From Actinokineospora xionganensis (lineage in GTDB: Bacteria; Actinomycetota; Actinomycetes; Mycobacteriales; Pseudonocardiaceae): 64,000 nucleotides of DNA. Of the stretch, positions 324 through 45,636 are shown one piece after another. Below the pieces are notes generated by a model. It worked only from the letters and a program-made list of their open reading frames with translations, was not told the origin of the DNA and searched no databases. The stretch is taken from NCBI RefSeq assembly GCF_014323725.1, contig NZ_JABVED010000018.1:1-64000 (forward strand), in the 5' to 3' direction. Positions within the stretch are counted from its first letter, which is position 1. Each line of letters opens with the position of its first letter. Both the position numbers and the translations under genes were made by a program.

Positions 324-3300
324 ATGACCACCGCCGTTTCTCTCTCCGACCTGCGTGAGCGCCTGCCCGAGCTGATGGTGCGCGACCAGCACCGACTGGG
401 GCGCAGGCTCGACGGGCTCCGCGGCATGCGCGACGAGAAGAAGCGCCAGGCGCTGTTGGCCAAGGTCGGCGCGGAGATCGAGACCGCCGCGCGGCGGGTG
501 GTGGCGCGGCGGGCTTCGGTGCCGAAGCTGAAATATCCCGAGGAACTGCCGATCAGCCGGCGGCGGGCCGACATCCTCGAAGCCATCCGGGACCACCAGG
601 TCGTGATCGTCGCCGGCGAGACCGGGTCCGGCAAGACGACGCAGCTGCCCAAGATCTGCCTCGAGCTAGGCCGCGGTATCACCGGCATGGTCGGTCACAC
701 CCAGCCCCGCAGGCTCGCCGCGCGCACCGTGGCCGAGCGGGTCGCCGAGGAGGTGGGGACGCCGCTGGGGGAGAGCATCGGCTGGAAGGTCCGGTTCACC
801 GACCAGGTCGGCGAGCGCACCCTGGTCAAGGTCATGACCGACGGCATCCTGCTGGCCGAGATCCAGAACGACCGGAACCTCAGCCAGTACGACACCCTGA
901 TCATCGACGAAGCGCACGAGCGCAGCCTCAACATCGACTTCCTGCTGGGCTATCTCTCCCGGCTGCTGCCCAAGCGCCCCGATCTCAAGGTGATCATCAC
1001 CTCGGCGACGATCGACCCGGAGCGGTTCTCCCGGCACTTCGGCGACGCCCCGATCATCGAGGTCTCCGGCCGCACCTTCCCGGTCGAGGTCCGCTACCGC
1101 CCGCTGGTCGACCCCGAGGACCCCGACGCCGACCCGGACCGCGACCAGACCCAGGGCATCCTCGACGCCGTCGACGAGCTGTGCGCGGAGGGCCCGGGCG
1201 ACATCCTGGTGTTCCTCTCCGGCGAGCGGGAGATCCGCGACACCGCCGACGCGCTGGCCGCCAGGAACCTGCGCGACACCGAGATCCTCCCGCTCTACGC
1301 CCGGCTGTCGAGCGCCGAGCAGCACCGGGTGTTCCAGCAGCACTCCAACCGCCGGGTGGTGCTCGCGACCAACGTCGCGGAGACCTCCCTGACCGTGCCG
1401 GGCATCAAGTACGTCGTCGACCCGGGCACCGCCCGCATCTCCCGCTACAGCAACCGGCTCAAGGTGCAGCGGCTGCCGATCGAGCCGGTGTCGCAGGCCT
1501 CGGCGAACCAGCGCAAGGGCCGCTGCGGCCGCACCAGCGACGGCATCTGCGTCCGCCTGTTCAGCGAGGACGACTTTCTCGCCCGCCCGGAGTTCACCGA
1601 TCCGGAGATCCTGCGCACCAACCTGGCCTCGGTCATCCTGCAGATGAGCGCGGCCGACCTTGGCGAGATGGCGGACTTCCCGTTCATCGAGCCGCCGGAC
1701 AAGCGCCACATCGCCGACGGTGTCAACCTGCTGCACGAACTCGGCGCGATCAACCCGACCGAGACCGACACCCGCAAGAAGCTGACCCCGCTGGGCCGCA
1801 AGCTCGCCCAGCTCCCGGTCGATCCGCGGCTGGCCCGCATGGTGATCGAGGCGGACAAGGCGGGCTGTGTCAGCGAGGTCATGGTCATCGCCGCCGCGCT
1901 GTCCATTCAGGACCCGCGCGAGCGTCCACAGGAGAAGCAGCAGGCCGCGCAGCAGATGCATGCCCGTTTCGCCGACCCGGACTCCGACTTCATGACTTAC
2001 CTCGCGCTGTGGGACTACCTGCGCGAGCAGCAGAAGGACATGTCGGGCAACCGGTTCCGCAGGCTGTGCAAGGCGGAGTTCCTGAACTACCTGCGGGTGC
2101 GCGAGTGGCAGGACATCCACAGCCAGCTGCGCCAGGTCGTGCGCCAGCTTGGCATCACGCCGAACGACACCAGGGCCGAGCCGCGCAACGTCCACATGGC
2201 ACTGTTGTCAGGTCTGTTGTCCCACATCGGTTTCCGCGACCCGGCGGCGAAGGACGGCAAGGACTACGTCGGCGCGCGCAACGCCCGCTTCGCGATCTTC
2301 CCCGGTTCGACGCTGGCGAAGAAGCCGCCGCGCTGGGTGATGGCCGCCGAGCTGGTGGAGACCTCCCGGCTGTGGGGCCGTATCGCGGCGCGCATCGAGC
2401 CGGAGTGGGTCGAGCCGATGGCCGAGCACCTCGTGAAGCGCACCTACAGCGAGCCGCACTGGGAAGCCAAGCAGGGCTCGGTCGTGGCGATGGAGAAGGT
2501 CACTCTGTTCGGGCTGCCGATCGTGGTGTCCCGCAAGGTCCAGTACGGCCGGATCGACCCGGAGATGTCGCGGGACCTGTTCATCCGCAACGCCCTGGTC
2601 GAGGGCGACTGGCAGACCCGGCACCACTTCTTCCACGACAACCGCAAGCTGCTCGCCGAGGTGGAGGAGCTCGAACACCGGGCCCGCCGCCGCGACATCA
2701 TGGTGGACGAGGAGACGCTGTTCGCCTTCTACGACCAGCGAATCCCCGCCGAGGTCGTCTCCGGACGGCACTTCGACACCTGGTGGAAGAAGACCCGGCA
2801 CGAGCAGCCGGACCTGCTGAACTACTCGAAGTCCATGCTGGTCAACGATTCGGCCAAGGACATCAACGAGCAGGACTTCCCGGACACGCTGCGGCAGCAC
2901 GGCCTCGCGCTCCCACTGACCTACCGCTTCGAGCCGGGCCGCAACGACGACGGTGTCACCGCGAAGGTTCCGATCGCGGTCCTCAACCAGCTCCATGGCG
3001 ACGGCTTCTCCTTGCAGGTCCCGGGTCTGCGCGAGGAGATCGTGACCGCGCTGATCCGGTCGCTGCCCAAGCCGCTGCGCCGCAACTTCGTCCCCGTCCC
3101 GGACTTCGCCAAGGCCGTCGTCGCCCGCCTCGGCGCCGAGGAGGAGTCGCTGCCCGAGGCGGTGGGCCGCGAGCTGCGCAAGCTGACCGGGGTGGTCATT
3201 CCCCGTGACGCCTGGCAGATCGACGCCGTCCCCGCGCACCTGCGGACCACGTTCCAGGTCGTCGACGGCGAGAAGACTCTCGCCACGGGCAAAGACCTCA

Positions 3301-4232
3301 TCGCCTTGAAGGACCAGCTCAAGTCCAAGCTTCGCCAGTCCCTCGCGGCCGCGTCGGTCGACCTGGAGCGGCGCGGGCTGACCGCCTGGACGATCGGCAC
3401 CCTGCCCAAGGTCCAGCGCACCGAGCAGAACGGCCTGGTCGTCACCGCCTACCCGGCGCTGGTCGACGAGGGCGACACCGTCGCGGTGCGGATGCTCGAC
3501 ACCGAGACCGACCAGCGGCACGCGATGTGGCTGGGCACCCGGCGGCTGGTGCTGCTGGGCGTGCCCTCGCCGGTCAAGCAGGTCGTGCGCACCCTGTCCA
3601 ACCAGGCGAAACTCGCCCTGTCGCACAACCCGCACGGCGGCGTCCCTGCCCTGCTCGCCGACTGCGTCGACTGCGCCGCCGACCACCTGATCGCCTCCGG
3701 CGGCGGCCCGGCCTGGGACGTGGCGGGCTTCGAGAAGCTGCGCGAGCACGTCCGCGTCGGCCTGATCGGCGCCACCCTCGACGTGCTCGACGCGGCCCGC
3801 AAGGTCGTCATGGCCTGGACCGACGTGCGGGCCCGGCTGGACCGCACGTCCGGCCCGATCTTCGTCGAGGCCCTGGCCGACATCCGCGAGCAGCTCAACG
3901 GGCTGATCTACCCCGGCTTCATCACCGCCACCGGACTGTCCCGGTTGTCCGATGTGGAGCGCTACCTGCGGGGGATCGAACGCAGGCTGGACAAGCTTCC
4001 CGAGCGCCCGGACCGCGATACCTCCTGGATGCATCAGGTTCAGGACCTCGAAGACGCCTACCACGAGGCGCTCAACCAGCTCCGCCCCGCGGCCCGCGAC
4101 TCCGCTAAGGCGCGCGAGGTGCAGTGGATGATCGAGGAACTGCGGGTCAGCTACTTCGCGCAGATGCTCGGCACCGCGGGCCCCATTTCCGACAAACGCG
4201 TTCTCAAGGCCGTCCAGCAGCTCATCCCATAG
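324..4232 (+). CDS. hrpA: ATP-dependent RNA helicase HrpA
   Basis: This is a DEAH-box RNA helicase of 1302 residues, the usual length for long HrpA proteins. Walker A GETGSGKTT is at about 98-106, the DEAH box at 195-198, SAT at 227-229, and motif VI QRKGRCGR at 396-403. The helicase core is followed by the helicase-associated and OB-fold regions and then the long C-terminal DUF3418 region typical of bacterial HrpA. The family unwinds RNA with NTP hydrolysis and in E. coli acts on mRNA and stalled ribosomes; that role here is inferred from the family. The gene stands alone: the next gene starts 124 bases downstream with its own ribosome-binding site. Confidence 0.97.
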   Translation: MTTAVSLSDLRERLPELMVRDQHRLGRRLDGLRGMRDEKKRQALLAKVGAEIETAARRVVARRASVPKLKYPEELPISRRRADILEAIRDHQVVIVAGETGSGKTTQLPKICLELGRGITGMVGHTQPRRLAARTVAERVAEEVGTPLGESIGWKVRFTDQVGERTLVKVMTDGILLAEIQNDRNLSQYDTLIIDEAHERSLNIDFLLGYLSRLLPKRPDLKVIITSATIDPERFSRHFGDAPIIEVSGRTFPVEVRYRPLVDPEDPDADPDRDQTQGILDAVDELCAEGPGDILVFLSGEREIRDTADALAARNLRDTEILPLYARLSSAEQHRVFQQHSNRRVVLATNVAETSLTVPGIKYVVDPGTARISRYSNRLKVQRLPIEPVSQASANQRKGRCGRTSDGICVRLFSEDDFLARPEFTDPEILRTNLASVILQMSAADLGEMADFPFIEPPDKRHIADGVNLLHELGAINPTETDTRKKLTPLGRKLAQLPVDPRLARMVIEADKAGCVSEVMVIAAALSIQDPRERPQEKQQAAQQMHARFADPDSDFMTYLALWDYLREQQKDMSGNRFRRLCKAEFLNYLRVREWQDIHSQLRQVVRQLGITPNDTRAEPRNVHMALLSGLLSHIGFRDPAAKDGKDYVGARNARFAIFPGSTLAKKPPRWVMAAELVETSRLWGRIAARIEPEWVEPMAEHLVKRTYSEPHWEAKQGSVVAMEKVTLFGLPIVVSRKVQYGRIDPEMSRDLFIRNALVEGDWQTRHHFFHDNRKLLAEVEELEHRARRRDIMVDEETLFAFYDQRIPAEVVSGRHFDTWWKKTRHEQPDLLNYSKSMLVNDSAKDINEQDFPDTLRQHGLALPLTYRFEPGRNDDGVTAKVPIAVLNQLHGDGFSLQVPGLREEIVTALIRSLPKPLRRNFVPVPDFAKAVVARLGAEEESLPEAVGRELRKLTGVVIPRDAWQIDAVPAHLRTTFQVVDGEKTLATGKDLIALKDQLKSKLRQSLAAASVDLERRGLTAWTIGTLPKVQRTEQNGLVVTAYPALVDEGDTVAVRMLDTETDQRHAMWLGTRRLVLLGVPSPVKQVVRTLSNQAKLALSHNPHGGVPALLADCVDCAADHLIASGGGPAWDVAGFEKLREHVRVGLIGATLDVLDAARKVVMAWTDVRARLDRTSGPIFVEALADIREQLNGLIYPGFITATGLSRLSDVERYLRGIERRLDKLPERPDRDTSWMHQVQDLEDAYHEALNQLRPAARDSAKAREVQWMIEELRVSYFAQMLGTAGPISDKRVLKAVQQLIP

Positions 4233-4356: not shown

Positions 4357-6429
4357 GTGGCGGGCGAATATGCCGACCTCGAATTCGGCCTGGTGTACGA
4401 CACGGAGCAGGACGCGTTCGACGTGAGCCTGCGGTACACCGGCGTGGACACAGTGGACTGGCCGGAGCACCCGGCCGATCTGCTGCGGATCGACCTGCCC
4501 GGGCTCGCCGACCTGATCGACGACGACGACGCCTACGCCGAGGCGCTGACCCGGATGGTCTTCGGGAACACCGAGATCGCCCGCTTCTACGAGAAGGCGA
4601 TGGCCGCCGCGCACACCGCGGCGGTGCACGTCCGGTTGCACGTGGACGGTCCGTCGAGATTCCACTCGGTCCGGTGGGAGCTGCTGCGGGACCCGATGTC
4701 GAACCACCCGATCGCCACCGACTCGACCGTGCTGTTCTCCCGGTACCTGTCCAGCGCCGACTGGCGCCCGATCCCGGTGCGCAAGGCGAGCGAGCAGGTC
4801 GCGCTCGTCGTGGTGGCCGCGCCGGACGACGTGGGGGAGTACGCCCCGGGCGGGCGCGAACTCGCGCCGGTCGACCTGATCGGCGAACGCGACCGGGCCC
4901 GCGACGCGCTCAAGGGGTACCGCACCGAGGTCATCGGCGGGGGCGGCACCGCGACCCTGGCCGCGATCACCGCCCGCCTGCAGGACCGAGACGACCCGAT
5001 CGACGTGCTCTACCTGGTCGCCCACGGCGCCCTCACCGAGGACGTGCCGCTGCTGTTCCTCGAGGCCGCCGACGGCAGGGCCGACCCGGTCGACGCGCGC
5101 AGGCTCGTCGAGGCGTTCCAGCACCTGGAGACCAAGCCGATGCTGGCGGTCCTCATGTCGTGCCGCTCGGCGGGCGCCGGGACCGCGTCCGACGACGGTG
5201 GCGCCCTCGCGGGGCTCGGGCCACGCCTGGCGGGCGCCGGGATCGCCGCGGTCATCGCGATGCAGGGCGATGTCACCATCACCACCGCGCAGACCTTCGC
5301 GCAGAAGTTCTTCGCCGAGTTCGCCGACGACGGCGTGGTCGACCGGGCCGTCGCCATCGCCCGGGCCGCGGTCCGGGACCGGCCCGACTGGTGGGTGCCG
5401 GTGCTGTTCTCCCGGCTGCGATCCGGGCGCACCTACTACCGCACCGAGGTCGGCGGCGAGACGTGGAGTTCGCTGGCGCTGATGATGCGCACCGGCCGGT
5501 TCACCCCGGTCCTGGGTCCGGGGTTCGCCGACGGCATCGTCGGGTCGCGGGTGGAGATCGCCCGCCGCTGGGCGCGCCGCTGGCAGATGCCGATCGCGCC
5601 GTCCGGGAAGGGCAACTTCGCCCAGGTCGCCCAGTACCTGCGGGTCGGCCGCTCACCCGGCGAGGTCCGCGCCTTCCTCATGGACTACCTGATGAGCGAC
5701 CTGCGCGAGAAGCGCCGCCGGGCGGGCAAGCACGACCTGATCGCCGAGGTCCCGCAGCACCTCCTCGAAGGCAACGACCCCGAGCCGGTGATCCTGGAAC
5801 TCGGCAGGCTGCTGCGCGAGCGCGACCCGGACGAGCCCTACCGGGCGGCCGCGGCGCTGCCCGTGAAGGTCTACGTCACCACCGGGTGGACCGACCTGCT
5901 GCAGCAGGCGCTGCGGGCGAACGAGCAGCCCAAGGACCCGGTCACGCTGTGCTTCCCGTGGAACGACACGGTCGAGCAGGTCGACCCGCACACGCTGGAA
6001 CCGCCGACCGTCGCGAAGCCGTGGGTCTACCACCTGTTCGGCAGGCTCGACAATCCCGACTCCGTCGTGCTGACCGAGGACGACCACTTCGAGTGGCTCA
6101 CCGCGTGGATCGAGCAGCGGCCGTCGATCCCACCCGCGGTGTCGGCGTCGCTGATGAAGAACTCCCTGATGTTCCTGGGATACCGGCTCGACGACTGGGA
6201 CTTCCGGGTGGTGTTCCAGGGGATCAAGAGCTTCGGCGGCAGCTCCCGGCTGCGCGCCAACACCCACGTCGGAGTCCAGGTGCGCCCGGAGAGCCAGACC
6301 ATCGAACCCGAGGCCGCGCAGCGGTACCTGGAGTCGTACTTCGGAGAGGACCGGGTCAGCCTGTTCTGGTCGGCCACCAAGGACTTCCTCCGCGAGCTGC
6401 GCGCCAACGCCGGGGACGGCGGGCCATGA
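4357..6429 (+). CDS. CHAT-SIR2 domain fusion protein
   Basis: About 690 residues from GTG 4357, chosen because GGAGG sits eight bases upstream; the frame opens at 4267 without a good ribosome site. Residues about 150-360 are a CHAT (caspase-like) protease domain with the dyad visible as VAHG (His about 223) and MSCRSAG (Cys about 269). Residues about 375-660 are a SIR2-like Rossmann domain: VLGPGFADG at the nucleotide-binding loop and LDNPDSVVLTEDDHF, a signature of SIR2-type NADase effectors. The usual HG catalytic histidine reads FG (VYHLFGR). The stop overlaps the ATG of the STAND NTPase gene (ATGA), so the two are translationally coupled. CHAT and SIR2 domains recur in bacterial conflict and programmed-death systems; a protease-NADase effector role is my inference. 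Confidence 0.85.
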   Translation: MAGEYADLEFGLVYDTEQDAFDVSLRYTGVDTVDWPEHPADLLRIDLPGLADLIDDDDAYAEALTRMVFGNTEIARFYEKAMAAAHTAAVHVRLHVDGPSRFHSVRWELLRDPMSNHPIATDSTVLFSRYLSSADWRPIPVRKASEQVALVVVAAPDDVGEYAPGGRELAPVDLIGERDRARDALKGYRTEVIGGGGTATLAAITARLQDRDDPIDVLYLVAHGALTEDVPLLFLEAADGRADPVDARRLVEAFQHLETKPMLAVLMSCRSAGAGTASDDGGALAGLGPRLAGAGIAAVIAMQGDVTITTAQTFAQKFFAEFADDGVVDRAVAIARAAVRDRPDWWVPVLFSRLRSGRTYYRTEVGGETWSSLALMMRTGRFTPVLGPGFADGIVGSRVEIARRWARRWQMPIAPSGKGNFAQVAQYLRVGRSPGEVRAFLMDYLMSDLREKRRRAGKHDLIAEVPQHLLEGNDPEPVILELGRLLRERDPDEPYRAAAALPVKVYVTTGWTDLLQQALRANEQPKDPVTLCFPWNDTVEQVDPHTLEPPTVAKPWVYHLFGRLDNPDSVVLTEDDHFEWLTAWIEQRPSIPPAVSASLMKNSLMFLGYRLDDWDFRVVFQGIKSFGGSSRLRANTHVGVQVRPESQTIEPEAAQRYLESYFGEDRVSLFWSATKDFLRELRANAGDGGP

Positions 6430-7862
6430 GCGCCGACACCGCGCCGATCGTGCTGCCCGCCGAGAACCCGTACGTCGGGCCGCGCGCGTTCCGCCGCGAC
6501 GAGCACCTGCCCAACCGTCAGCACGTGGCCCGCGAACTCGCCGACCTGGTCATCGCCGAGCGGATCGTGCTGCTGCACGCGCCGTCCGGCGCGGGCAAGA
6601 CGTCGCTGATCCAGGCCGCCGTCGCGCGGATGCTGCGCTCCGACGGCTTCCTGCCGACCACGCCCGCGCGGGTCGACAAACCGGCTCCCGCGCGCGGCAA
6701 TCGGTATGTGCACAGCATCGGCGTGGACCTGCTCGGCGCGGAGACACCAGGGCTTGACGACCTCACCGTCGGGGAGATCGTCGAGCGCCTGGAGCCGCCG
6801 CTGCTCGAGGGCACCGCCCGCGTGCTGGTGATCGACCAGCTCGAGGAGATCCTCACCCTGGACCCGACCGACCGCGACGCCACGGAGGAGTTCTTCCGCC
6901 AGCTCGGCGCGGCGCTATCGGACGGCACGCTGTTCGCGCTGTTGGCGGTGCGCGAGGACTACATGGGCGGACTGGACCGGTATCTGCGGTTCCTGCCCGG
7001 CAGGCTGCGGGCCCGGTTCCGGCTCGACTTCCTCGACCACGACGAAGCGCTCGCAGCCGTGCGCAGGCCCGCCGCCGAGCAACGGGTGTCCTTTGTGGAT
7101 GGCGCGGCGGAGAAGCTGGTCGACCGGCTCGCCCGGGCCAGGGTCGACCGCCCGGACGGGTCCGACCACTGGCTGCGATCCCCTTATGTGGAGCCGTTTC
7201 AGCTGCAGGTCGTGTGCCGCACGCTGTGGCGGATCACCGCCGCGCAGTGCGAGAACTTCGACGAGATCGGCATGGGTGACGTCGAGCGCGTCGACATCGA
7301 CCGGGCGCTGAGCCGCTACTACGGCAACGCCTTGGCGGAGCTGGAACGCGAACTGGGGGTCGACCAGCGGGCGGTGCGTGAGTGGTTCGAGGACGAGCTG
7401 ATCACCGCCCGCAGGTTCCGGGCGCAGACGACCGACCCGCCGGTGCCGGGTGAGCTCGGGGTGCGGGTACTCGACGCCTTGGAGGACGCGTACCTGATCC
7501 GCGCGGACACCCGTGCGGGCACGACGTGGTACGAACTGGCGCACGACCGGCTGATCACCGCGGTCATCGACGCGAACCAGGCGTGGCGGCACGCCACCCT
7601 CGAGCCCTGGCAGGTGGCGGCTTACGACTGGCACCGCAACCACCGGCAGAGCGCGTTCCTGCTCACCGGCGACGCCCTGAGGCTGGCCCCGCGGCCCGCG
7701 GCGACCGGGTTGGCCGACGTGGAACGTGAGTTCCTGCTCCGCTCGTTCGACGAGGCCGGGCTGGCGAGCGCGCGTGGCGCCACCAGCCGACTCGCGCTGC
7801 TGGCCGCGGCCGAGGCGGTGGTGATCGTGGTGCTCACGGTGCTGCTGGTGGTGCTGACTTGA
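6426..7862 (+). CDS. STAND-type NTPase with C-terminal membrane anchor
   Basis: A 478-residue protein starting at the ATG that overlaps the CHAT-SIR2 stop codon. The N-terminus PYVGPRAFRRDE is characteristic of the nSTAND1 family. Walker A APSGAGKTS is at 52-60 and Walker B VLVIDQLEEIL at about 133-143. A winged-helix-like region with the motif WYELAHDRL follows, and the last 27 residues form a hydrophobic helix predicted to span the membrane. There are no WD40, TPR or other repeats, which STAND proteins usually carry as sensors. STAND NTPases act as ATP-driven switches that oligomerise on ligand binding. Here it probably controls the coupled CHAT-SIR2 protein at the membrane, which is inference from gene order. 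Confidence 0.85.
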   Translation: MSADTAPIVLPAENPYVGPRAFRRDEHLPNRQHVARELADLVIAERIVLLHAPSGAGKTSLIQAAVARMLRSDGFLPTTPARVDKPAPARGNRYVHSIGVDLLGAETPGLDDLTVGEIVERLEPPLLEGTARVLVIDQLEEILTLDPTDRDATEEFFRQLGAALSDGTLFALLAVREDYMGGLDRYLRFLPGRLRARFRLDFLDHDEALAAVRRPAAEQRVSFVDGAAEKLVDRLARARVDRPDGSDHWLRSPYVEPFQLQVVCRTLWRITAAQCENFDEIGMGDVERVDIDRALSRYYGNALAELERELGVDQRAVREWFEDELITARRFRAQTTDPPVPGELGVRVLDALEDAYLIRADTRAGTTWYELAHDRLITAVIDANQAWRHATLEPWQVAAYDWHRNHRQSAFLLTGDALRLAPRPAATGLADVEREFLLRSFDEAGLASARGATSRLALLAAAEAVVIVVLTVLLVVLT

Positions 7863-8196
7863 CACCCTCCCCCCAGCCCGAGCGGGGGATTCCGACAGCG
7901 ACTACCGCAGGAGGGGGAGGTCACGTTGAGGTTCACGGTTCTCGGGCCCACCCGACGGTGGGCCTCCCCGTGCGGTCACAGCATGCGTGGTCCCGCGGCG
8001 CCTGCTGCCGCACGATCGCCGAACCGGAGGCCAACCACGGGCTCGCCCCACGCGCCTCGGTCGACTGCCGAGCCTGCTCGACCAACCTGGGCGCTCCGAC
8101 TGAGTCCGACATGTCAGCGCATATCCCGGCCGTGCCGGCGCACCGGTTCCCAATTCCGCCTCGGCATGAACGCCTGCAAATCGACGGGAGATCCAG
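7863..8196. other. 334-base spacer inside the CHAT/STAND/peptidase block
   Basis: No complete gene is seen. At 7926 a TTG codon preceded by a strong ribosome site (AGGAGGGGGAG) opens a frame whose first eight residues, LRFTVLGP, match the start of SARP/BTAD regulators, but the following sequence in all three frames shows no winged-helix or BTAD similarity. It may be the decayed 5' end of a SARP regulator. Purine-rich and pyrimidine-rich runs flanking 7865-7921 could form an imperfect stem. The peptidase gene has its own GGGAG ribosome site. Confidence 0.4.
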
Positions 8197-9543
8197 ATGA
8201 CCGAGCTGCCGGTCAACGGCGTCGACGCGGACACCGGCGGGTACATGTTCGCGCCGGAGACCGTCGAGGACTTGGCGGCACTCGCCCGCGGCGAGAGCCC
8301 ACCGGAGCGGCACGTCCGCGCGTTGCGCAAGCGCGACCAGGCGCGGGAGCCGACGTTCGGCACCCAGTACGGGTTCGACCCGCAGGACCTGGCGTCGGTC
8401 GGCTGGGCGGTGGTCACCACCCCGGCGAGCCCGGCGCTCGACGCGCTGCGGCCGCTGCTGGACCTGCGCCGCACCCAGGCGGGCGCACTCTACCGGGAGC
8501 TGGTCGTGGAACCAGGGGAGGACGACGCCGCGTTCCTGCGCCGCTACGGCGCCGGTCCCGGTCCCGCCGAGCCCACGAGGGTGCCGTACTACCTGCTCCT
8601 GGCGGGCGACCCGGCGGAGCTGCCGTTCAGCCTGCAGTACCAACTCGACGTGCAGTACGCGGTGGGCAGGCTGCACTTCGACACCCTCGACGACTACGCC
8701 CGCTACGCCGCGGCCGCTGTGGCGGCCGAAGGGGCGGCCCTCGACTCGCCGGGCATCCACCTTTTCGGCGTTCGGAATCCCGACGACCGGGCCACCACGC
8801 TGAGCACGTCGAAGCTGATCGAGCCGCTGCGCGCGGAACTGACCGGGCACGGCGTCACCGTGGGGGTCGACGTCGCGGAGCAGGCCACCAAGGCCCGGCT
8901 GTCGACGCTGCTCGCGGAGCCGCACGCGGCCCGGGTGCTGTTCACCGCCTCGCACGGCATCGGCTCGGCCAAGCCGGAGATGCGTGAGATCCAGGGCGCC
9001 CTGCTCTGTCAGGACTGGCCCGGCCCGATGGCGGCGATACCGTTGACCGCAGACCAGTACTTCGCCGGCGCCGACGTCACCGGGACGCCGACACCGGACG
9101 TCGTGTTCTCCTTCGCCTGCTACGGCGCCGGGACGCCCGGCGCCGCGGACTTCCCCCGCGGGCACGACGCGGGTCAGGCGTTCGTCGCACGGCTGCCGCA
9201 GCGGCTGCTGGCGGCCGGGGTGCTCGGGTTCGTCGGGCACGTGGACCGGGTGTGGAGCTGCTCGTTCCTGTGGAAGGGCGTCGACCCGCAGATCGGCACC
9301 ATGGCCAGCACCCTGCGCGCACTCCTGGCAGGCCGGCGTCTCGGCGCGGCCATGGAATACCTCAACCAGCGCTATGCGGCTATCGCGACCGAACTGGTCA
9401 CCCGTCTCGACGCCCTGCGCAGACTCGGCCGCAAGATCGACGACGAGACCCTGGCCGCGCTCTGGACGGCCAACAACGACGCGCGGAATTACATTGTTCT
9501 CGGAGACCCGGCGGTCCGGCTGGGTGCCGGGAAGGGGCCATGA
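8197..9543 (+). CDS. C25/caspase-like cysteine peptidase
   Basis: A 448-residue cytoplasmic protein, with no signal peptide. The caspase-haemoglobinase fold catalytic pair is visible as TASHGIG (His 253) and SFACYGAGTP (Cys 308), each after a hydrophobic strand. The C-terminal NYIVLGDPAVRL motif is typical of gingipain-type (C25) and related peptidases, in which GDP precedes the last strand. The start ATG has GGGAG upstream at suitable distance. The gene follows the STAND NTPase on the same strand and its stop overlaps the next ATG (ATGA). Substrate is unknown. Its co-occurrence with a second caspase-like protein (CHAT) in the same block suggests a proteolytic cascade, which is inference. Confidence 0.8.
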   Translation: MTELPVNGVDADTGGYMFAPETVEDLAALARGESPPERHVRALRKRDQAREPTFGTQYGFDPQDLASVGWAVVTTPASPALDALRPLLDLRRTQAGALYRELVVEPGEDDAAFLRRYGAGPGPAEPTRVPYYLLLAGDPAELPFSLQYQLDVQYAVGRLHFDTLDDYARYAAAAVAAEGAALDSPGIHLFGVRNPDDRATTLSTSKLIEPLRAELTGHGVTVGVDVAEQATKARLSTLLAEPHAARVLFTASHGIGSAKPEMREIQGALLCQDWPGPMAAIPLTADQYFAGADVTGTPTPDVVFSFACYGAGTPGAADFPRGHDAGQAFVARLPQRLLAAGVLGFVGHVDRVWSCSFLWKGVDPQIGTMASTLRALLAGRRLGAAMEYLNQRYAAIATELVTRLDALRRLGRKIDDETLAALWTANNDARNYIVLGDPAVRLGAGKGP

Positions 9544-10316
9544 TCACCGTCGAAGCGCACGGCGACCTAGCTGTCCTGCGGCTCGACCACGGCAAGGTCA
9601 ACGCACTCGACCTGCAACTGTGCGAGGCCATCAGCCGCACCGTCAGCAGTCTGGTGGCCGACGGCCTGATCATCACCGGCGCGGGCCAGGCCTTCAGCGC
9701 GGGCGTAGACCTGCGCCGCGTCGTGGAGGGCGGCGCGAACTACGTCGCCGATTTCCTGCCCGCACTCAGCAAGGCGTTCTTGGCCATCTTCGACTGCCCC
9801 CGCCCAGTCATCGCCGCCGTCGGCGGGGCAGCGATAGCCGGAGGATGCGTCATCGCCGCCGCAGCCGACTACCGGATCATGTCAGCCGGCCGGATAGGGC
9901 TCACCGAACTGCTGGTCGGCGTCCCGTTCCCGGTGGCGGCACTGGAAATCATCCGCCACGCCGTCGGCCACCACGCCCAACGCCTGATCAACACCGGCGC
10001 GGTGCTCGATGCCCAGACCGCGCTGTCGGTGGGCTTGATCGATGAGGTGGTGAGCCCGGACGACCTCCTCGACCGGGCTCTGACCCGCGCGACGGCCCTG
10101 TCCCGAATTCCGCCCGCCGCTTTCGCCCTGACAAAGCGACAGCTGCATCGTCCCGCCCGAAGCCGAATCGAGGCGGCCAGGGGAGTGGACGACCCGAAGG
10201 TGACGGCATTGTGGCAGTCACCCAAGGCGCTTTCGAATATCGCCGACTATTTGGAGACGCTGCGCCAGTCGCGAGTTCAGCACTCGGGCGGCCGCTGGAT
10301 CCGCCGCGCCGATTGA
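9540..10316 (+). CDS. Enoyl-CoA hydratase/isomerase (crotonase) family protein
   Basis: 258 residues, starting at the ATG that overlaps the peptidase stop. Crotonase landmarks are clear: GAGQAFSAGVDL at 47-58 and AAVGGAAIAGGC at 92-103 (the two oxyanion-hole segments) and ELLVGVPFP at 123-131. Of the two glutamates that perform hydration in classical enoyl-CoA hydratase, the first is Val 104 while the second, Glu 123, is kept. This pattern fits an isomerase or other crotonase chemistry rather than a standard hydratase. Tight coupling to a cysteine peptidase gene is unusual for a fatty-acid enzyme. The true substrate is unknown. Confidence 0.85.
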   Translation: MITVEAHGDLAVLRLDHGKVNALDLQLCEAISRTVSSLVADGLIITGAGQAFSAGVDLRRVVEGGANYVADFLPALSKAFLAIFDCPRPVIAAVGGAAIAGGCVIAAAADYRIMSAGRIGLTELLVGVPFPVAALEIIRHAVGHHAQRLINTGAVLDAQTALSVGLIDEVVSPDDLLDRALTRATALSRIPPAAFALTKRQLHRPARSRIEAARGVDDPKVTALWQSPKALSNIADYLETLRQSRVQHSGGRWIRRAD

Positions 10317-10397: not shown

Positions 10398-11309
10398 TCA
10401 AACGCGTGACTTCGCCATGTGCAACCGCACAACAGTCCCCACAGCCGTAGACCGGATCCGAACCAGATCACAAAGCTGATTCGCCAGCCACACCCCACGC
10501 CCACCAGGCACCGAAGGCGTCGGCACGATCCGTCCCACCAGCGGGTCCGTGATCTGCCCGCCGTCGCTGACCTCGCACACCACGGCGTCCTGTTCGTCCC
10601 ACACCCGCAGCGTCCCGCGTTCGCCGCCATGGCAGATGCTGTTCGTGACGATCTCGTTCGTCGCCAGCGTCAGGTCCAACGCCCGGGCACGCGGCAGCCC
10701 GAAGCCGCTGGCTCGGATGGTGACCAGATCCCGCAGCTCCGGCAGGTCGTCGAGGTTGAAGTGGGCGACGTCGGAGACCGTCTCGGGGGCGGGGAGTTCG
10801 GCGGCGAACTCGGTGTCGGCGAGTTTCGGGTCGAACCGGTCGCTCTGCCTGCGCAGGGCGCCCTCGACGAGGACCGGGTGGCTGTGTTCGGCGTCGGCCA
10901 GGAACGCCGGGTGGGTGGGGCACAGCAGGCGCAGGTCGGTGTTCTCGAAAGCGATGTTGACCAGTGCCTCGTGCAGCCGGGTCTCCGCGGTCTCCTCTTC
11001 GGTGCGGCCCGGCCAGGTGTGCTCGGTGACCGCCCGCGCGGGCCGGTTGCCCGCCTGGTCGATCAGGGCGCGCAGGGTCGGGATGATGCGGGCCGGGTTG
11101 CGCCCGACCTCGGTCATGTCGAGGAACCGCACGCGGTCGGCGTCGCCGTCGAGGGCGTCTCGCAGGGCTTCGATCGCACCCGGTCGGACCAGCGCGAACA
11201 CCACCTCACCCGCGGCGACCCCGGCGCGCAGGAAGGCGCTGGTGCCTTCGAGGTAGCCGGCCTCATCGCGGTACACGAGTGCCTCGTGTGCGAAACCGGG
11301 TGCGGTCAT
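10398..11309 (-). CDS. MEDS-domain/HATPase anti-sigma regulatory protein (RsbA family)
   Basis: 303 residues from ATG 11309 (MTAPGFAHEALVYRD), the usual start of MEDS proteins; GGAGG lies upstream. Residues 1-160 form a MEDS domain (sensor seen in methanogen and actinobacterial regulators), and 180-300 a GHKL ATPase of the serine-kinase anti-sigma type, with an N box (LATNEIVTNSICHGG) and a glycine-rich G box (GGRGVWLANQLCD). Such proteins bind and phosphorylate anti-anti-sigma factors. No anti-anti-sigma or sigma-B-type gene is adjacent, so the partner must lie elsewhere. The gene converges on the crotonase gene and diverges from the flavodoxin gene. Confidence 0.85.
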   Translation of the reverse strand: MTAPGFAHEALVYRDEAGYLEGTSAFLRAGVAAGEVVFALVRPGAIEALRDALDGDADRVRFLDMTEVGRNPARIIPTLRALIDQAGNRPARAVTEHTWPGRTEEETAETRLHEALVNIAFENTDLRLLCPTHPAFLADAEHSHPVLVEGALRRQSDRFDPKLADTEFAAELPAPETVSDVAHFNLDDLPELRDLVTIRASGFGLPRARALDLTLATNEIVTNSICHGGERGTLRVWDEQDAVVCEVSDGGQITDPLVGRIVPTPSVPGGRGVWLANQLCDLVRIRSTAVGTVVRLHMAKSRV

Positions 11310-11492
11310 TCGGTTGTCACGTCCTCCGGGCCGGTTCATGCGGGGCGTTGTCCTGTCTCCCAGGACGCGACGGGCGCACGCGAGTTGCCCGTCCCGCCAG
11401 GCACTGCGAAAGGGTACTCGCGGGAAGCTCGAGCGGCGAGGCATGGCACCGGCCGCGACACTGAGGCGTCGACGTGAAGGAGAGAGACACCG

Positions 11493-13079: not shown

Positions 13080-13330
13080 AGGTCCTCGTCCGGGTCGGGG
13101 ATCTGGAACGCCGCGATCTGCGCCTCTACGAAGTCGACACCGGGCACGCCCTGCACGGCGTCGAGGGATTCGGGCGGCACCGAGCCGGTGATGGTGCCCA
13201 CCGGCGCGATGACCTCCTCGACTTCCATCCCGGCCTGGCGTAGCTCGGCGACGACCTCGTCGACCCGGGACAGGCCCGCGTCGTCGAGGGTCACCATCAC
13301 CCGCTCGAGCGGTTCATCGATATCGTTCAT
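13073..13330 (-). CDS. Small I9-inhibitor/propeptide-like protein
   Basis: 85 residues, starting at the ATG that overlaps the stop of the upstream subtilase (ATGA). The segment ITGSVPPESLDAVQGVPGVDFVEAQ-like (about 47-71) follows the pattern of inhibitor_I9 propeptides, which end in a hydrophobic strand around PGVxxVE and fold as a small ferredoxin-like domain. I9 domains assist folding of subtilisins and inhibit them. Here the domain is encoded as a separate protein downstream of the protease and could act in trans. The similarity is judged by eye. It is acidic, with no signal peptide, so it would be cytoplasmic like its partner. Confidence 0.7.
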   Translation of the reverse strand: MNDIDEPLERVMVTLDDAGLSRVDEVVAELRQAGMEVEEVIAPVGTITGSVPPESLDAVQGVPGVDFVEAQIAAFQIPDPDEDLQ

Positions 13331-14514
13331 GGCGCCTGCACCAACCCCGATCCCACGTCGGTCGACGGCAATGGCAGCCTACGCGCGATCTGCGAGAGCC
13401 GCGCCCACAGTTCCCACGCCCGCGCCCCGGTCGCCTGCGCGATGAGCGCCGCGATGCCCGCGACGTGCGGGGTGGCCATGCTGGTGCCGCTGATCCTGTT
13501 GTGCCCCAGCGGAGCGGGCCACGACGAGTAGACGTCCACGCCCGGTCCGACGATGTCGACCTGGCCGATCTCGTCGACCGTGCCGCACGAGAACCACGCC
13601 ATCGCCATGTTCACGTCCACCGCGCCGACCGCCATGATCGACGGGCAGTTCGCCGGGTGCCCGACCGGGTTGATCCGGCCGTTCTGCCGCCGCGACTCGT
13701 TGCCCGCGGCCGCGATGATCAGCGTGCCCTGGGCCATCGCGCGGTTGGCGGCGCTCTCGTAGGTGCGGGAGTACGGGTCGCCCGGGCGCGTGGCCGCGCC
13801 CAGCGACATCGACACGATCGGGCAGCCGTTGGTGATCGCCCATGCGATGCCGGCGAGGATGCCGCCGTCGGTGCCGGACCCGCGGTTGCTCAGCACCTTG
13901 CCCGCGAAGATCTCCGACTTGTAGGCCATGCCGTAGCCGGGCTTCTGCGCCGGGTCGCGTGGGCCGCAGGCGGTGCCGATGCAGTGCGTGCCGTGACCGT
14001 GGCCGTCCTGCACGTCCTCGCCCTGGATGAACGAGCTGGTCGTGACCGAGCGCCCGGCGAAGTCGGGATGGTTGACGTCAAAACCGGTGTCCAGCACGGC
14101 CACCCGGATGCCCTCGCCGGTCGCCTGGCTCAGCTGCGCGCGCACCGCCTGCATGCCCCAGGTGAACTGGCTCTCGTCGACAGCGAGTGGCTCGTCGGCG
14201 GGCAGTGCGCTGATCGCGTACACCCGCCGCTCGGGCTCCACCAGCGACAGCGGGCCCGGCTCGTGCACCGCGCGGTCCAGCGCGGCCAGTTGGTCTGGGT
14301 CGGCGTTGACGACGGCGATGCCGAGTTCGCGCAGCACCAGCCCGTCGGTGTCCTGGAAGTCGACTTCCGCGTCCTCGGTGTCGGCGTTGCTGGCGGCGCG
14401 GATTCCCGCCACGTCGCCCATCTGGCGCGTCCCCGCGTCGACCGCGTGGTCCTCCATCAGCACCAGATAGCGCCCGGTCGTCCCGCCATGTTGTGTGTCC
14501 TGCGGCTCCGTCAT
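13327..14514 (-). CDS. Intracellular S8 family serine peptidase (subtilase)
   Basis: 395 residues with the full catalytic set: Asp 142 in AVLDTGFD, His 174 in GHGHGTH, oxyanion Asn 272 in AAAGNES and Ser 345 in SGTSMATPHVAG. There is no signal peptide or lipobox, so it should act in the cytoplasm. The first 115 residues may be a propeptide-like region. It is coupled to the small I9-like gene downstream. It is transcribed divergently from mshC across 151 bases. Substrates are not evident from the sequence. Confidence 0.93.
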   Translation of the reverse strand: MTEPQDTQHGGTTGRYLVLMEDHAVDAGTRQMGDVAGIRAASNADTEDAEVDFQDTDGLVLRELGIAVVNADPDQLAALDRAVHEPGPLSLVEPERRVYAISALPADEPLAVDESQFTWGMQAVRAQLSQATGEGIRVAVLDTGFDVNHPDFAGRSVTTSSFIQGEDVQDGHGHGTHCIGTACGPRDPAQKPGYGMAYKSEIFAGKVLSNRGSGTDGGILAGIAWAITNGCPIVSMSLGAATRPGDPYSRTYESAANRAMAQGTLIIAAAGNESRRQNGRINPVGHPANCPSIMAVGAVDVNMAMAWFSCGTVDEIGQVDIVGPGVDVYSSWPAPLGHNRISGTSMATPHVAGIAALIAQATGARAWELWARLSQIARRLPLPSTDVGSGLVQAP

Positions 14515-36303: not shown

Positions 36304-36373
36304 GGTGTGATCGTCCCATCAGATCCCCCCACTGCCCGGCGCGGCTCACGTCCGTGTCGTCGGTGCGGACCCG

Positions 36374-36379
36374 TAGGGT
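36374..36379 (+). promoter_or_regulatory. -10 element of dop (TAGGGT)
   Basis: TAGGGT ends seven bases before ATG 36387. A GGTGGA run overlaps it and could serve as a weak ribosome site, so either a leaderless or an internal-start reading is possible. Confidence 0.4.
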
Positions 36380-36386
36380 GGAAGAC

Positions 36387-37892
36387 ATGCGGCGGATCAT
36401 GGGAACCGAGGTCGAGTACGGCATCTCCGTGCCGGGCGACCCCACGGCCAACCCGGTGTTGACATCGACTCAGGTCGTCCTGGCGTACGCGGCCGCGGCC
36501 GACATCCCGCGGGCCCGCCGGGCGCGGTGGGACTACGAGGTGGAATCGCCGCTGCGCGACGCGCGCGGGTTCGACCTGGGGGCGCCCGGCATGGCCCCGT
36601 CGGACCCCGACGTGGAGGACCTGGGCGCGGCCAACGTCATCCTCACCAACGGCGCGCGCCTCTACGTCGACCACGCCCACCCCGAGTACTCCGCGCCTGA
36701 GGTCACCAACGCGCGCGACGCCGTCATCTGGGACAAGGCGGGCGAGCGGGTGATGGAGGAGGCCGCGATGCGCGCGGCCACCGTCCCCGGACAGCCGCGG
36801 CTTCAGCTCTACAAGAACAACGTCGACGGCAAGGGCGCCAGCTACGGCACCCACGAGAACTACCTGATGGCCCGCAACACCCCGTTCACGTCGATCATCG
36901 CGGGCCTCACCCCGTTCTTCGCCTCGCGCCAGGTCGTCTGCGGCTCCGGCCGCGTCGGCCTCGGCGTCGCGGGGGAGGAGGCGGGCTTCCAGCTCTCCCA
37001 GCGCTCGGACTACATCGAGGTCGAGGTCGGCCTGGAGACCACGCTCAAGCGCGGCATCATCAACACCCGCGACGAGCCGCACGCCGACGCCGACAAGTAC
37101 CGCCGCCTGCACGTGATCATCGGCGACGCGAACCTGGCCGAGACCTCGACGTACCTCAAGGTCGGCACCACCGCCCTGGTCCTCGACATGATCGAGTCCG
37201 GTATCCGGTTCGACCACCTCAAGCTCGCCGACCCGGTCCGCGCGGTGCACGTGCTCAGCCACGACCCGACACTCAAGGCGACGGTCGAGCTGACCAACGG
37301 CCGCAAGTTCACCGGTTTGGACCTGCAGAACGCCTACCACGAGATGATCGCCGCGCACGTCGACCGGATCGAGGCCGACGCCGTCGGCCGCGACGTCCTG
37401 CGCACCTGGGGCGAGATCCTCGACGCCCTCGCGCGCGACCCGATGGAGTGCGCCGACCGGCTCGACTGGCCCGCGAAGCTGCGGCTGCTGGAGGGCTTCC
37501 GGGCCCGCGACGGCCTCAACTGGAACTCCCCTCGGCTGCACCTGGTCGACCTGCAGTACTCCGACGTGCGCCTCGACAAGGGCCTCTACAACCGCCTTGT
37601 CGCCCGCGGCTCGATGAAGCGCCTGGTGACCGAGGACGAGGTCCGCACGGCCGTCTACACCCCGCCGTCGGACACCCGCGCCTACTTCCGCGGCCGCTGC
37701 CTGGAGCGCTACCCGAACTCCATCGCGGCCGCATCGTGGGATTCGGTCATCTTCGACCTCGGCCGGGAGTCGCTGGTGCGCATCCCGACCCTGGAGCCGC
37801 TGCGCGGCACCAAAGCCCACGTCGGGGACCTGCTCGACGCCGCCGACACCGCCGAACAGCTCGTGGACAAGCTCACCGGCACGAAACGCTGA
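36387..37892 (+). CDS. dop: Pup deamidase/depupylase Dop
   Basis: 501 residues from ATG 36387 ([14 protein letters not shown]), the standard start; it belongs to the carboxylate-amine ligase (glutamine synthetase-like) fold shared with PafA. The insert [24 protein letters not shown] is the Dop-loop that separates Dop from PafA. Metal/ATP-binding carboxylates lie in GTEVEYG, YKNNVDG and [20 protein letters not shown]. Dop converts PupQ to PupE and removes Pup from substrates. Since Pup here already ends in Glu, the depupylase activity should be the relevant one. The pup gene follows after 150 bases. Confidence 0.97.
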
Positions 37893-37894
37893 GC

Positions 37895-37900
37895 TAGAAT
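37895..37900 (+). promoter_or_regulatory. Possible -10 element upstream of pup (TAGAAT)
   Basis: TAGAAT is a good -10 match just after the dop stop codon and would give a leader of about 135 bases before pup. No clear -35 is visible, so this is tentative. Confidence 0.35.
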
Positions 37901-38042
37901 GATCACAAGTAGTGTGAAGACGACAACCAACCGTGACCCAAGGGGACCGTGACGGCAGTCTCCACGGTGACCGCATTTTCGGAAGTTACCTACGGACCGC
38001 CACAACTGGGTAAATTCCGGGGAGGCGGAACAGGAGGTCTCA

Positions 38043-38237
38043 ATGTCCCAGGAGCAGACACAGCGGCAGGGTGGCGGTGACGGCGACGACGGCGCCGAGG
38101 ACACCACCGCGGCGGGTCAGGAACGACGCGAGAAGCTCGGCGACGACACCGACGCGATCCTCGACGAGATCGACGACGTGCTCGAGGAGAACGCCGAGGA
38201 CTTCGTCCGCGCGTACGTGCAAAAGGGCGGCGAGTAA
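38043..38237 (+). CDS. pup: Prokaryotic ubiquitin-like protein Pup
   Basis: 64 residues, the normal size. It is acidic, Gly/Gln-rich at the N-terminus and has the conserved C-terminal half ([28 protein letters not shown] read in segments) that forms a helix on the ATPase coiled coil. It ends in GGE rather than GGQ, so PafA can attach it to lysines directly without deamidation. GGAGG precedes the ATG. Pup, prcB and prcA are spaced 67 and 33 bases apart and form one transcript. Confidence 0.97.
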
Positions 38238-38304
38238 GCCCCCCGCCCGCGCGGTCACCAGCCCAACCCCCCGGCGACGCCGAAAACAGGAATTGAAAGA
38301 AGGC

Positions 38305-39162
38305 ATGGAACACACCTCGTCCCGAGGGCCGCGAGGAGCCTCGCTCTCGCCTGCCCACCTGTCAGCCGGTTCGTCGTCGTTCACCGACTTCCTGCGCTCC
38401 CAGGCGCCCGAACTCCTTCCTGGGCGCCGCGTCGCCGACGCGCCCGCCGTGAGCCGCGCGGACATCCCGCACGGCACGACCATCGTGGCGGTCACCTTCG
38501 CCGGCGGTGTGCTCATCGCGGGCGACCGCCGGGCCACCGCGGGCAACCTGATCGCCCAGCGCGACATCGAGAAGGTCTACGTCACCGACGAGTACTCGTC
38601 GGTGGGCATCGCGGGCACCGCGGGCCTCGCGGTGGAGCTGGTCCGGCTCTACACGGTCGAACTGCGCCACTACGAGAAGATCGAGGGCGTCGGCCTCTCG
38701 CTCGACGGCAAGACCAACAAGCTGGCCAGCATGGTCCGCGGCAACCTCGACGTGGCCATGGCGGGCCTCGCGGTGCTGCCGCTGTTCGTCGGCTACGACA
38801 TCGACGCCGACGACCCGGCCACCGCGGGCCGGATCGTGTCCTTCGACGTCACCGGCGGCCGCTACGAGGAGCGCGCGGGCTTCCACGCCATCGGCTCCGG
38901 CTCGATGTTCGCCAAGTCCGCACTCAAGAAGCTCTACGACCCCGAGGGCGACAAGGCGACCGCCGTCCGCGCGGCCGTCGAGGCCCTATTCGACGCCGCC
39001 GACGACGACTCCGCCACCGGCGGACCGGACTTGGCCCGCCGGATCTACCCCAGCATCGTCACCATCACCGCCGACGACGGCGCCCAGCGCCTGTCGGAGG
39101 CGGACACGGCCTCCGTGGCCGAAGCCGTGGTGAACGACCGGTCCGAACGCCCCCGCGGCTGA
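38305..39162 (+). CDS. prcB: Proteasome beta subunit PrcB
   Basis: 285 residues from ATG 38305, with a GAAAGAAGG ribosome site. A propeptide of 57 residues is followed by [14 protein letters not shown], where Thr 58 becomes the N-terminal nucleophile after autocleavage. The conserved [11 protein letters not shown] and later Asp/Ser residues of the Ntn-hydrolase site are present. PrcB forms the inner rings of the 20S core and does the proteolysis. It lies between pup and prcA in the usual order. Confidence 0.97.
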
Positions 39163-39195
39163 CCGACATCCCCGCCGAGTTAAGGAGCCTGCCCC

Positions 39196-39981
39196 GTGAC
39201 GATGCCGTTGTACGCCTCGCCCGAGCAGCTGATGCGCGACCGCTCGGAGTACGCCCGCAAGGGTATCGCCCGGGGCCGCAGCGTCGTCGCGCTGAAGTAC
39301 GCCGACGGCGTGCTGTTCGTCGCCGAGAACCCGTCGGCGACCCTGCACAAGGTCTCGGAGATCTACGACCGCATCGGCTTCGCCGCCGCGGGCCGCTACA
39401 GCGAATATGAGAGCCTGCGCCGCGGCGGCATCCGCCACGTCGACCTGTGGGGCTACTCCTACGACCGACGCGACGTCTCGGCCCGGCAACTGGCGAACGT
39501 CTACGCCCAGACCCTCGGCACGATCTTCACCGAGCAGGTCAAGCCGATGGAGGTCGAGATCTGCGTCGCCGAGGTGGGTGCCACGGCAAGGCAGGACCAG
39601 CTTTACCGCCTGACGTACGACGGCTCCATCGTCGACGAACCGCAGTTCCTGGTGATGGGCGGCCAAACCGACCCGATCGCCGCCCTCCTCAAGGAAACCT
39701 TCGAGGACGGCATCCCCCTGAGCGACGCGGTCCGACTGGCCCTCAAGGCCCTGGCGGCAGGCGCGGCGAACAGCGCGGCGAAGACCGCGGGGGAGACCAC
39801 GCTGGACAAGCTCGAGGTGGCGGTCCTCGACCGCGGCAGGCCCACCCGCGCCTTCCGCCGCATCACCGGAGCGGCCCTCACAGCGCTGCTCCCGGCCGAC
39901 GAACGCCCTGCGGAGTCCACCCCGGAATCCCCCGCGAAGCCGATCGAGGACGTCGAACTACCGCCCACTGAGGGCGAATAA
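39196..39981 (+). CDS. prcA: Proteasome alpha subunit PrcA
   Basis: 261 residues from GTG 39196, with AAGGAG upstream. The alpha-type N-terminus ([27 protein letters not shown] in part) forms the gate and there is no processed threonine. The body is an Ntn-hydrolase fold ([14 protein letters not shown]), and the C-terminal 35 residues are Pro/Glu-rich. The alpha rings cap the 20S core and bind the GQYL tail of ARC. The prc unit ends at a strong hairpin. Confidence 0.97.
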
Positions 39982-39997
39982 CTCCAGGCGAATGGGA

Positions 39998-40036
39998 GCA
40001 GCCCGGTGGAGGCCTGAGAGGCCGCCACCGGGCTGC
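39998..40036 (+). terminator. Terminator of the pup-prcB-prcA operon
   Basis: GCAGCCCGGTGG pairs with CCACCGGGCTGC; an inner GGCCT/AGGCC stem closes the loop, and CTCTTT follows. It starts 17 bases after the prcA stop. Confidence 0.85.
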
Positions 40037-40542
40037 ACTCTTTGGTGAGGCCGAATGCCCTGCCGCTGAAGCCCGCTCATCACCCGGCGTCCCTAACGCA
40101 GGCGGGCCGGACCGATCGGCCTGCTCGGATGATCCGTCCACCACCCATACAGGCACCCCCGCATGCAGCCGCAGACACCCCCGGCATCAAGCCGCGAACA
40201 CCGAGCACCCAAGCCGCGAGCACCTGAGCATCGAGTCGCAGCCAGTGAGCGAGTTGGACCAATGCCGCACCAGCGTGGGCCGTCCGCCCGTGAACACTGA
40301 TCCATCAGGACGCCACCACCCCGTTGCCCCCGGTTGCAACTACGTCAACCCAACGCGATAACCCCTGTTCACGCGCATGTTATGGGCTTCCGGGATAGGC
40401 CGAACCGGTATTTGGCGAGTCATAGTCCCTCAACGACCAATTTCCGGCCGGCGATCGTGAGGATCGTGGATGCCAAGTGAGGGCTAGGCGTCCGCAGGCC
40501 GGAAGGGTCGTGTCCCAACCCCTGCATTCGTGAGGACAACCC
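40037..40542. other. 506-base intergenic region upstream of the secreted subtilase
   Basis: No gene is seen. GC content is lower than in the flanks. Two imperfect copies of a 22-base unit beginning CAAGCCGCGA(A/G)CACC lie at 40188 and 40210. The right part should hold the subtilase promoter and a leader; TGAGGAC before the ATG is the likely ribosome site. I could not assign a riboswitch. Confidence 0.4.
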
Positions 40543-43608: not shown

Positions 43609-43619
43609 CGAGAAAAGCG

Positions 43620-43657
43620 ACCGTGGCGCGGTCAGCACTACCTGGCCGTGCCACGGT
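43620..43657 (+). terminator. First terminator hairpin after secreted subtilase
   Basis: ACCGTGGCGCGGTCAG pairs with CTGGCCGTGCCACGGT with two mismatches across a six-base loop. Confidence 0.7.
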
Positions 43658-43678
43658 GACCAATAGTTGAGTGATAAA

Positions 43679-43716
43679 CAGGTCTGGCGACGTCTGGGTA
43701 GACGTCGCCAGACCTG
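43679..43716 (+). terminator. Second terminator hairpin with T tail
   Basis: A perfect 17-bp stem (CAGGTCTGGCGACGTCT and complement) with the loop GGGT and the tail TTTCT, the most classical intrinsic terminator in the window. Confidence 0.88.
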
Positions 43717-43807
43717 TTTCTACACGCCGCTCCCAAGAATTGTGGGGTCCCTCCCACCAGGCGGTCTGGGATTTGCATAACGCCGCGCCAGAGGGCATAA
43801 CTTTGGT

Positions 43808-44794: not shown

Positions 44795-44798
44795 CCCT

Positions 44799-45626: not shown

Positions 45627-45636
45627 GGGGGCGACG

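Follow-up and report, generated by a model that had tools for sequence, protein, structure and literature searches.

Do a CHAT protease fused to a SIR2-like domain, a STAND nucleoside triphosphatase (NTPase), a C25-like peptidase and a crotonase-fold protein, encoded side by side in an actinobacterium, act as one system, and would that system cut proteins or destroy nicotinamide adenine dinucleotide (NAD)? The question is raised by a four-gene block (genes G1 to G4) in a stretch of 64,000 nucleotides of Actinokineospora xionganensis (contig NZ_JABVED010000018.1, positions 1 to 64,000), hereafter the window. The original prediction had placed the four genes in one direction and one block, with ATGA overlaps at G1/G2 and G3/G4; gene calls and Pfam bore out the block, and both overlaps were confirmed. 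We found that G1, G2 and G3 occur together in distant bacteria, and that the SIR2 catalytic residues are replaced in all ten CHAT-SIR2 proteins aligned. The co-occurrence of the core genes points to protease-based control or defence rather than to an NAD-destroying system. With a probability of about 0.55, a membrane STAND switch would control the CHAT protease through a pseudo-SIR2 adaptor, with the C25-like peptidase as second protease and an exchangeable fourth gene. The genes of the block are as follows.

4357(GTG)..6429, + strand: G1, protein of 690 amino acids with a CHAT part and a predicted pseudo-SIR2 part (Pfam, alignments)
6426..7862, + strand: G2, nSTAND1 NTPase of 478 amino acids (Pfam), in ATGA overlap with G1
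8197..9543, + strand: G3, C25-like (clan CD) cysteine peptidase of 448 amino acids, His253/Cys308
9540..10316, + strand: G4, crotonase-fold protein of 258 amino acids (Pfam ECH_1), in ATGA overlap with G3

For G1, the start at 4357 was preferred over a longer TTG frame (from 4267) because relatives start at the 4357 position.

Shared occurrence of G1, G2 and G3

With G1 as bait, four full-length proteins were found in 61 relatives; 396 genomes of the phylum returned the bait's own protein plus two CHAT-only matches and no others, and a profile of G1 (A5) added one further CHAT-SIR2 protein, in genome G667, among 394 genomes of the class. At the five loci found in this way (the window, G014, G007, G052 and G667), G2 was adjacent to G1 in all five and G3 in four. 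With G3 as bait, 12 loci were obtained, and G1 and G2 lay alongside in four of them: Kitasatospora (L072), Nocardioides soli (L075), an uncultured proteobacterium (L076) and Terrabacter tumescens (L077). As G3 was the bait that led to these four triads, they give no estimate of how often G1 carries G3. The other eight loci were without G1 and G2, one of them (L073) having a different CHAT gene; at L074, L078 and L080-L083 a contig end lies less than 10 kb away on at least one side. The gene order was G1-G2-G3 in the genus and Kitasatospora, and G3-G1-G2 in Nocardioides, Terrabacter and G667. Genes at these loci were accepted only with tblastn or Pfam support, as the simple gene caller gave some false calls (long antisense frames). 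Co-occurrence, proposed earlier as a check on all four genes, was seen in distant taxa for G1 to G3 and not for G4; the outcome that would have spoken against the prediction, genes occurring only separately, was not observed for G1 to G3. A scan of genome contigs with G1 alone returned 49 pattern stretches and zero relatives, and of 44 plasmid records matching G1 none covered 80% of the query. At L015 (14953-17049), phage-sheath and gp19 tail-tube genes of the contractile-injection type adjoin the CHAT-SIR2/nSTAND1 pair of G052; a link of such genes to the block was dropped, as nothing alike was noticed in the other triad gene lists, in which not all genes were scanned.

Trees were built from 38 SIR2 rows, 32 STAND rows (that of L076 taken from its tblastn segment) and 16 G3 rows. 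The CHAT-SIR2 kind formed a single clade with support of 100/100 in both the SIR2 and the STAND tree, and the order within it was (L077,G667) and (L075,(G052,(L072,(genus)))) in both. One mismatch between the two trees, L076, was a weak exception, its placement having support of 90/80 and 86/69. In the G3 tree the order agreed where resolved. Five outgroup SIR2 rows were long branches, so the SIR2 root is unsure, and under this unsure root the pairs of SIR2 and nSTAND1 genes may be ancestral.

Within the genus, the block was followed through genome searches at a site anchored by two flanking genes.

324..4232, + strand: HrpA-type DEAH helicase (Pfam helicase domains and DUF3418), 5' flank and site anchor
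10398..11444, - strand: protein with MEDS and HATPase_c_2 domains, 3' flank and site anchor

G1, G2 and G3 stood at this one site in 3 of the 16 genomes (the window genome, G014 and G007), and G4 matched better than E 1e-40 in the same three only. Amino acid identity to the window across the four genes was 94-97% in G014 and 75-85% in G007. The 3' end of the helicase gene was present in 16/16 genomes; 12 of the 13 block-less ones had the MEDS/HATPase gene at the site, inverted in one case (G011). The loci following hrpA were retrieved from all 13 block-less genomes, and 12 had the flanking gene without any match to G1-G4. The spacing was smallest in G013 (53 bp) and largest in G006 (about 3.1 kb), and other genes occupied some of the sites. 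The thirteenth (G005) stops after 856 bases, leaving the site unreadable, and the G005 genome is also without a match. Presence and absence between close strains, another check proposed at the outset, indicated that the block comes and goes as a unit. Ratios of nonsynonymous to synonymous substitution (dN/dS) for the four genes were 0.045-0.134 against G014 and 0.162-0.255 against G007; purifying selection is acting on all four.

Catalytic residues and domain partners

The CHAT domain of G1 spans residues 60-346 (3.8e-23, 82.8 bits, Pfam cut-off 24) and its SIR2_2 domain residues 505-661 (1.9e-21, 77.1 bits, cut-off 24.5). The dyads that had been read from the window, His223/Cys269 in CHAT and His253/Cys308 in the C25-type protein, were found at those positions. 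In the aligned CHAT-SIR2 proteins the CHAT His was conserved in 10/10 and the Cys in 9/10, and the G3 dyad in 20/20 aligned members. For both proteases this agrees with the original prediction, which a lack of conservation in homologues would have refuted.

The SIR2 part differed. In the window, G1 has Gly510 at the SIR2 Asn position, Thr512 at the Asp position (two residues on) and Phe561 at the position of the HG His. All ten CHAT-SIR2 proteins have F where the HG His would stand; Asn is replaced by G, S, D or Q, and Asp by T, S or W, so that the canonical residues were counted in 0/10, 0/10 and 0/10. Two residues before the HG position, 9/10 retain a His; in stand-alone proteins it mostly coexists with the HG His, so it is no replacement. 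The controls were stand-alone SIR2 proteins beside nSTAND1 (22 SIR2 loci, nSTAND1 adjacent in 22/22, plus G048; residues counted from alignments), in which Asn was present in 21/23, Asp in 22/23, His in 19/23, and Asn and His together in 18/23. Five other SIR2_2 domains had each of the three residues in 5/5. In the aligned part, what distinguishes PDB chains 9v0g and 9v12 is an Asn-to-Ala and a His-to-Ala change at the same two SIR2 positions. In the Avs5 defence protein, Asn-to-Ala and Asp-to-Ala changes abolish immunity, according to the available part of PMC12931631. With Asn, Asp and His all replaced, NAD hydrolysis by G1 is therefore unlikely though possible, and the domain is probably no NADase; the claim that it is a NADase effector was not supported by this comparison. 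Most of the GxG-type loop around residue 387 is retained, and the SIR2 part may still bind a nucleotide. By profile it matched ThsA chains; PADLOC gave weak matches only, the best being of ThsA type (1.7e-8) on this part. The stand-alone SIR2 + nSTAND1 pairs (L096-L117) are themselves widespread in two actinobacterial families, and their SIR2 site is partly degenerate in 5/23, counting G048.

G2 matched nSTAND1 at 1.8e-23 (84.3 bits, cut-off 27.1). The Walker A Lys (Lys58 in G2) was kept in 9/9 STANDs of the CHAT-SIR2 kind. A hydrophobic C-terminal helix lies at about 459-477 (mean hydropathy 2.94 from residue 459), in agreement with the earlier assignment of a membrane STAND, the membrane helix being a prediction. 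The STANDs of the window, G052, L072 and L075 all end in such a helix, and in that of Terrabacter a helix at 474 precedes WD40 repeats. A membrane helix was undetected in the partial frame of G667 and in two stand-alone-type STANDs. No superstructure repeats (WD40, TPR or similar) were found in G2 with Pfam at E<=1.

The G3 protein of the window scored 15.0 bits against Pfam C25, below the cut-off of 23. A C25 match at E<=0.1 was obtained for 13/13 scanned family members (best 2.7e-9), and relatives at L072 (25.0 bits), L079 (24.7), L095 (25.4) and in Nostoc (38.9) passed the cut-off. A PDB search with the G3 profile A4 gave zero sequence matches at E<=10, and one with profile A1 a single chance-like match. 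On a plasmid of Nostoc sp. MS1, the C25 gene overlaps by ATGA the gene of a CHAT-annotated protein of 1586 amino acids directly downstream, which carries nSTAND1 (456-822) and WD40 and whose first part matches the CHAT protein of L073 (1e-11). With CHAT and nSTAND1 in one chain, Nostoc thus supports a direct link between G1 and G2. A C25 gene also lies beside the CHAT gene at L073, and no more than 6 kb from a CHAT protein gene in Planktothrix. Two loci showed other C25-like arrangements: a fusion with a domain of papain type (Peptidase_C1) within a single frame (L082, 5257-8148), and two convergent C25-like genes end to end (L074, 9932-12741).

A proposed STAND-controlled protease and its alternatives

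In the mechanism that we propose, the pseudo-SIR2 part of G1 would be a docking or regulatory module for the STAND, with an ancestry shared with the two-gene pairs of nSTAND1 and a mostly intact SIR2. Upon a trigger, the membrane-anchored STAND would assemble and gather the CHAT domains, which would be activated by proximity. The active CHAT protease would cut a target, which may be the C25-like G3; G3 would then be the second protease. The system would act through proteolysis, with growth arrest, death or a regulated response as the outcome, and not through NAD loss. Support comes from the co-occurrence, the empty sites in congeners, the loss of SIR2 residues, the concordant trees, the intact dyads and P-loop, the Nostoc fusion and the dN/dS values. 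A stronger form is possible, though we tend to doubt it: an apoptosome-like cascade, in which a NADase-STAND pair became a protease-STAND pair through CHAT fusion and decay of SIR2 to an adaptor, and the CHAT initiator cuts and activates a C25-like executioner. If true, a suicide NADase module can be rebuilt as a protease module with its STAND partner retained, giving a compact bacterial parallel to an initiator-executioner cascade. It would also caution against assigning NADase function to SIR2 domains on the strength of the family name.

Several observations weigh against control of the CHAT protease by the STAND in one system with G3. G1 and G2 occur without G3 in G052, and the eight G3 proteins of triads did not form one clade (monophyletic in 8% of bootstraps). 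One CHAT protein, the second of two tandem G1 copies at L076 (L076b), has Pro in place of the catalytic Cys, with an intact copy beside it. Avs5 is functional with NG instead of HG (available part of PMC12931631), so loss of the His alone is no proof of inactivity. There was no direct sign of defence: the site sits among chromosomal genes, G1 had zero matches among 50,697 phage records (G3 was not searched there), and profiles A5 and A4 found zero relatives of G1 or G3 among IMG/VR viral-contig candidates. As for the tandem copies at L076 (602-5307), the Pro-bearing one is a possible inactive regulatory partner.

The split between G052 and the other loci, together with the scattered triad G3s, would suit two independent neighbours that assort separately, G1-G2 (CHAT, SIR2-like, STAND) and G3-G4 (C25 and a variable enzyme). 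The two gene orders and the eight of 12 G3-bait loci without G1 or G2, some with contig ends near, fit this too. We regard it as unlikely: G3 was adjacent in four of the five G1-bait loci, G2 and G3 overlap by ATGA in G014 and G007, and C25 genes accompany CHAT genes in Nostoc, L073 and Planktothrix as well. The housekeeping chromosomal surroundings and the phage and viral-contig searches without relatives would be expected of a proteolysis module that serves development or stress responses in mycelial actinobacteria and has no conflict role, yet presence and absence between congeners and the patchy spread across phyla suit accessory conflict genes better, making this reading improbable. Least probable of all, in our judgement, is the original prediction's version, in which a STAND that senses at the membrane frees a SIR2 NADase as well as the CHAT protease, and the cascade is extended by the second protease. 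In its favour are the SIR2_2 score well above the cut-off, the largely kept GxG-type loop, the activity of Avs5 with NG, and the 5/23 stand-alone relatives that likewise deviate from Asn and His; the replacement of all three residues in 10/10 CHAT-SIR2 proteins and the loss of Avs5 immunity on the Asn and Asp changes stand against it.

The arrangement had been called undescribed, and this holds within the literature searched (open-licence PMC papers), where no published description of CHAT-SIR2 with nSTAND1 and C25 was found. The name nSTAND1 comes from Kaur et al. 2021 (PMC8195603). The STAND and NTP-dependent conflict systems of that paper and of Kaur et al. 2020 (PMC7159879), as far as their available text goes, share with the block an NTPase switch and caspase-superfamily peptidase partners. 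In VMAP systems the caspase-superfamily domain always has an alpha/beta-hydrolase neighbour (available part of PMC7159879), and such a neighbour is also present at some C25 loci here. Compared with the NTP-dependent conflict systems, the block is without MoxR, vWA and VMAP among the matches listed, and a CHAT-SIR2 fusion with separate nSTAND1 and C25-like protease is not described in the available portions of the two papers. Avs5 has in common with the block a SIR2_2 domain under STAND NTPase control; in the available part of PMC12931631 it is one protein with nSTAND3, an active NADase and sensor repeats, whereas the block has two proteins, nSTAND1, a SIR2 domain without the catalytic residues and added proteases. 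The SIR2 + nSTAND1 pairs (G048, L096-L117) belong to sister SIR2 and STAND families and are likewise adjacent genes, but have no CHAT and mostly intact SIR2 residues, and the stand-alone-type STANDs have TPR and no membrane helix (two examples scanned). The Nostoc sp. MS1 cluster joins CHAT, nSTAND1 and C25 as the block does, and differs in having CHAT and STAND in one chain, no SIR2 among the matches listed, a WD40 superstructure, and an alpha/beta-hydrolase-like gene where the block has the crotonase. In Craspase, TPR-CHAT is also a CHAT protease under the control of a partner complex, although it is an RNA-guided CRISPR effector and, in the available part of PMC9729208, works without a STAND. 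For animal SAMD9 and its actinomycete relatives, a SIR2-like domain of variant type adjoining a STAND-like NTPase has been reported (available part of PMC5445408), so an adaptor role of such domains may be of wider interest.

The fourth gene, the G2/G3 junction and the surroundings

The crotonase had been counted as a member of the system, a claim that was not supported: no G4 match was found at E 1e-3 in the 12 G3-bait loci or L015, or at 1e-5 in L127, whose contig stops shortly after G2. As far as seen, G4 is linked to the block in this genus only; the closest outside relative, with 55% identity, lies in an unrelated setting in G034. G4 matched ECH_1 at 7.8e-38. Its motif GGCVIAA is without the first of two glutamates that we take to be those of hydratases, and GLTELLVG has the second; this pattern is as in isomerases, which were also its best PDB matches. 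In Kitasatospora, G3 is followed by a protein of 449 amino acids; its relatives in Nostoc, Sinorhizobium and L081 (41-52% identity) are encoded next to C25 genes. This family matches Abhydrolase_8 below the cut-off or not at all, so the name alpha/beta-hydrolase-like is tentative. Other alpha/beta-hydrolases adjoin G1 of G052 and the G3 relatives at L079 and L026. The enzyme encoded in fourth place may thus be exchangeable, being a crotonase in this block and alpha/beta-hydrolase-like in Kitasatospora.

In G014 and G007, G2 and G3 are also joined by an ATGA overlap, so that all three junctions are of this kind. The window has 334 extra bases that separate G2 from G3, inserted exactly at an ATGA gene junction.

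7863..8196, no strand assigned: internally deleted remnant of a tnpB (OrfB_IS605) element, which G014 and G007 lack

With 40 of 89 candidates scored, the remnant has at least 36 matches in its own genome, a count that includes the remnant; the matches fall into two parts. In longer copies the two parts are about 0.9 kb apart, and the frame in one of these (L016) is a TnpB (Pfam OrfB_IS605, 2.7e-16); 7863-8196 is therefore a tnpB element with an internal deletion. The G3 start is preceded by a purine-rich GGGAGA, so G3 may still be translated despite the insertion. The mobile-element insert and the loss of the SIR2 catalytic residues were both new relative to the original prediction.

Rfam at the gathering threshold gave zero matches across the window, and no tRNAs were found in it. 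A subtilase (Peptidase_S8) gene lies close to the block (13327-14514, - strand); by tblastn, 13 of the 15 other genomes in the genus have a relative of it there, and it is therefore part of the core setting. Elsewhere in the window Pfam identified HisG, TatC, a proteasome subunit and two Pup-ligase-family genes, a gene set typical of an actinobacterial chromosome, the last three forming a core actinobacterial Pup-proteasome region (36354-48630).

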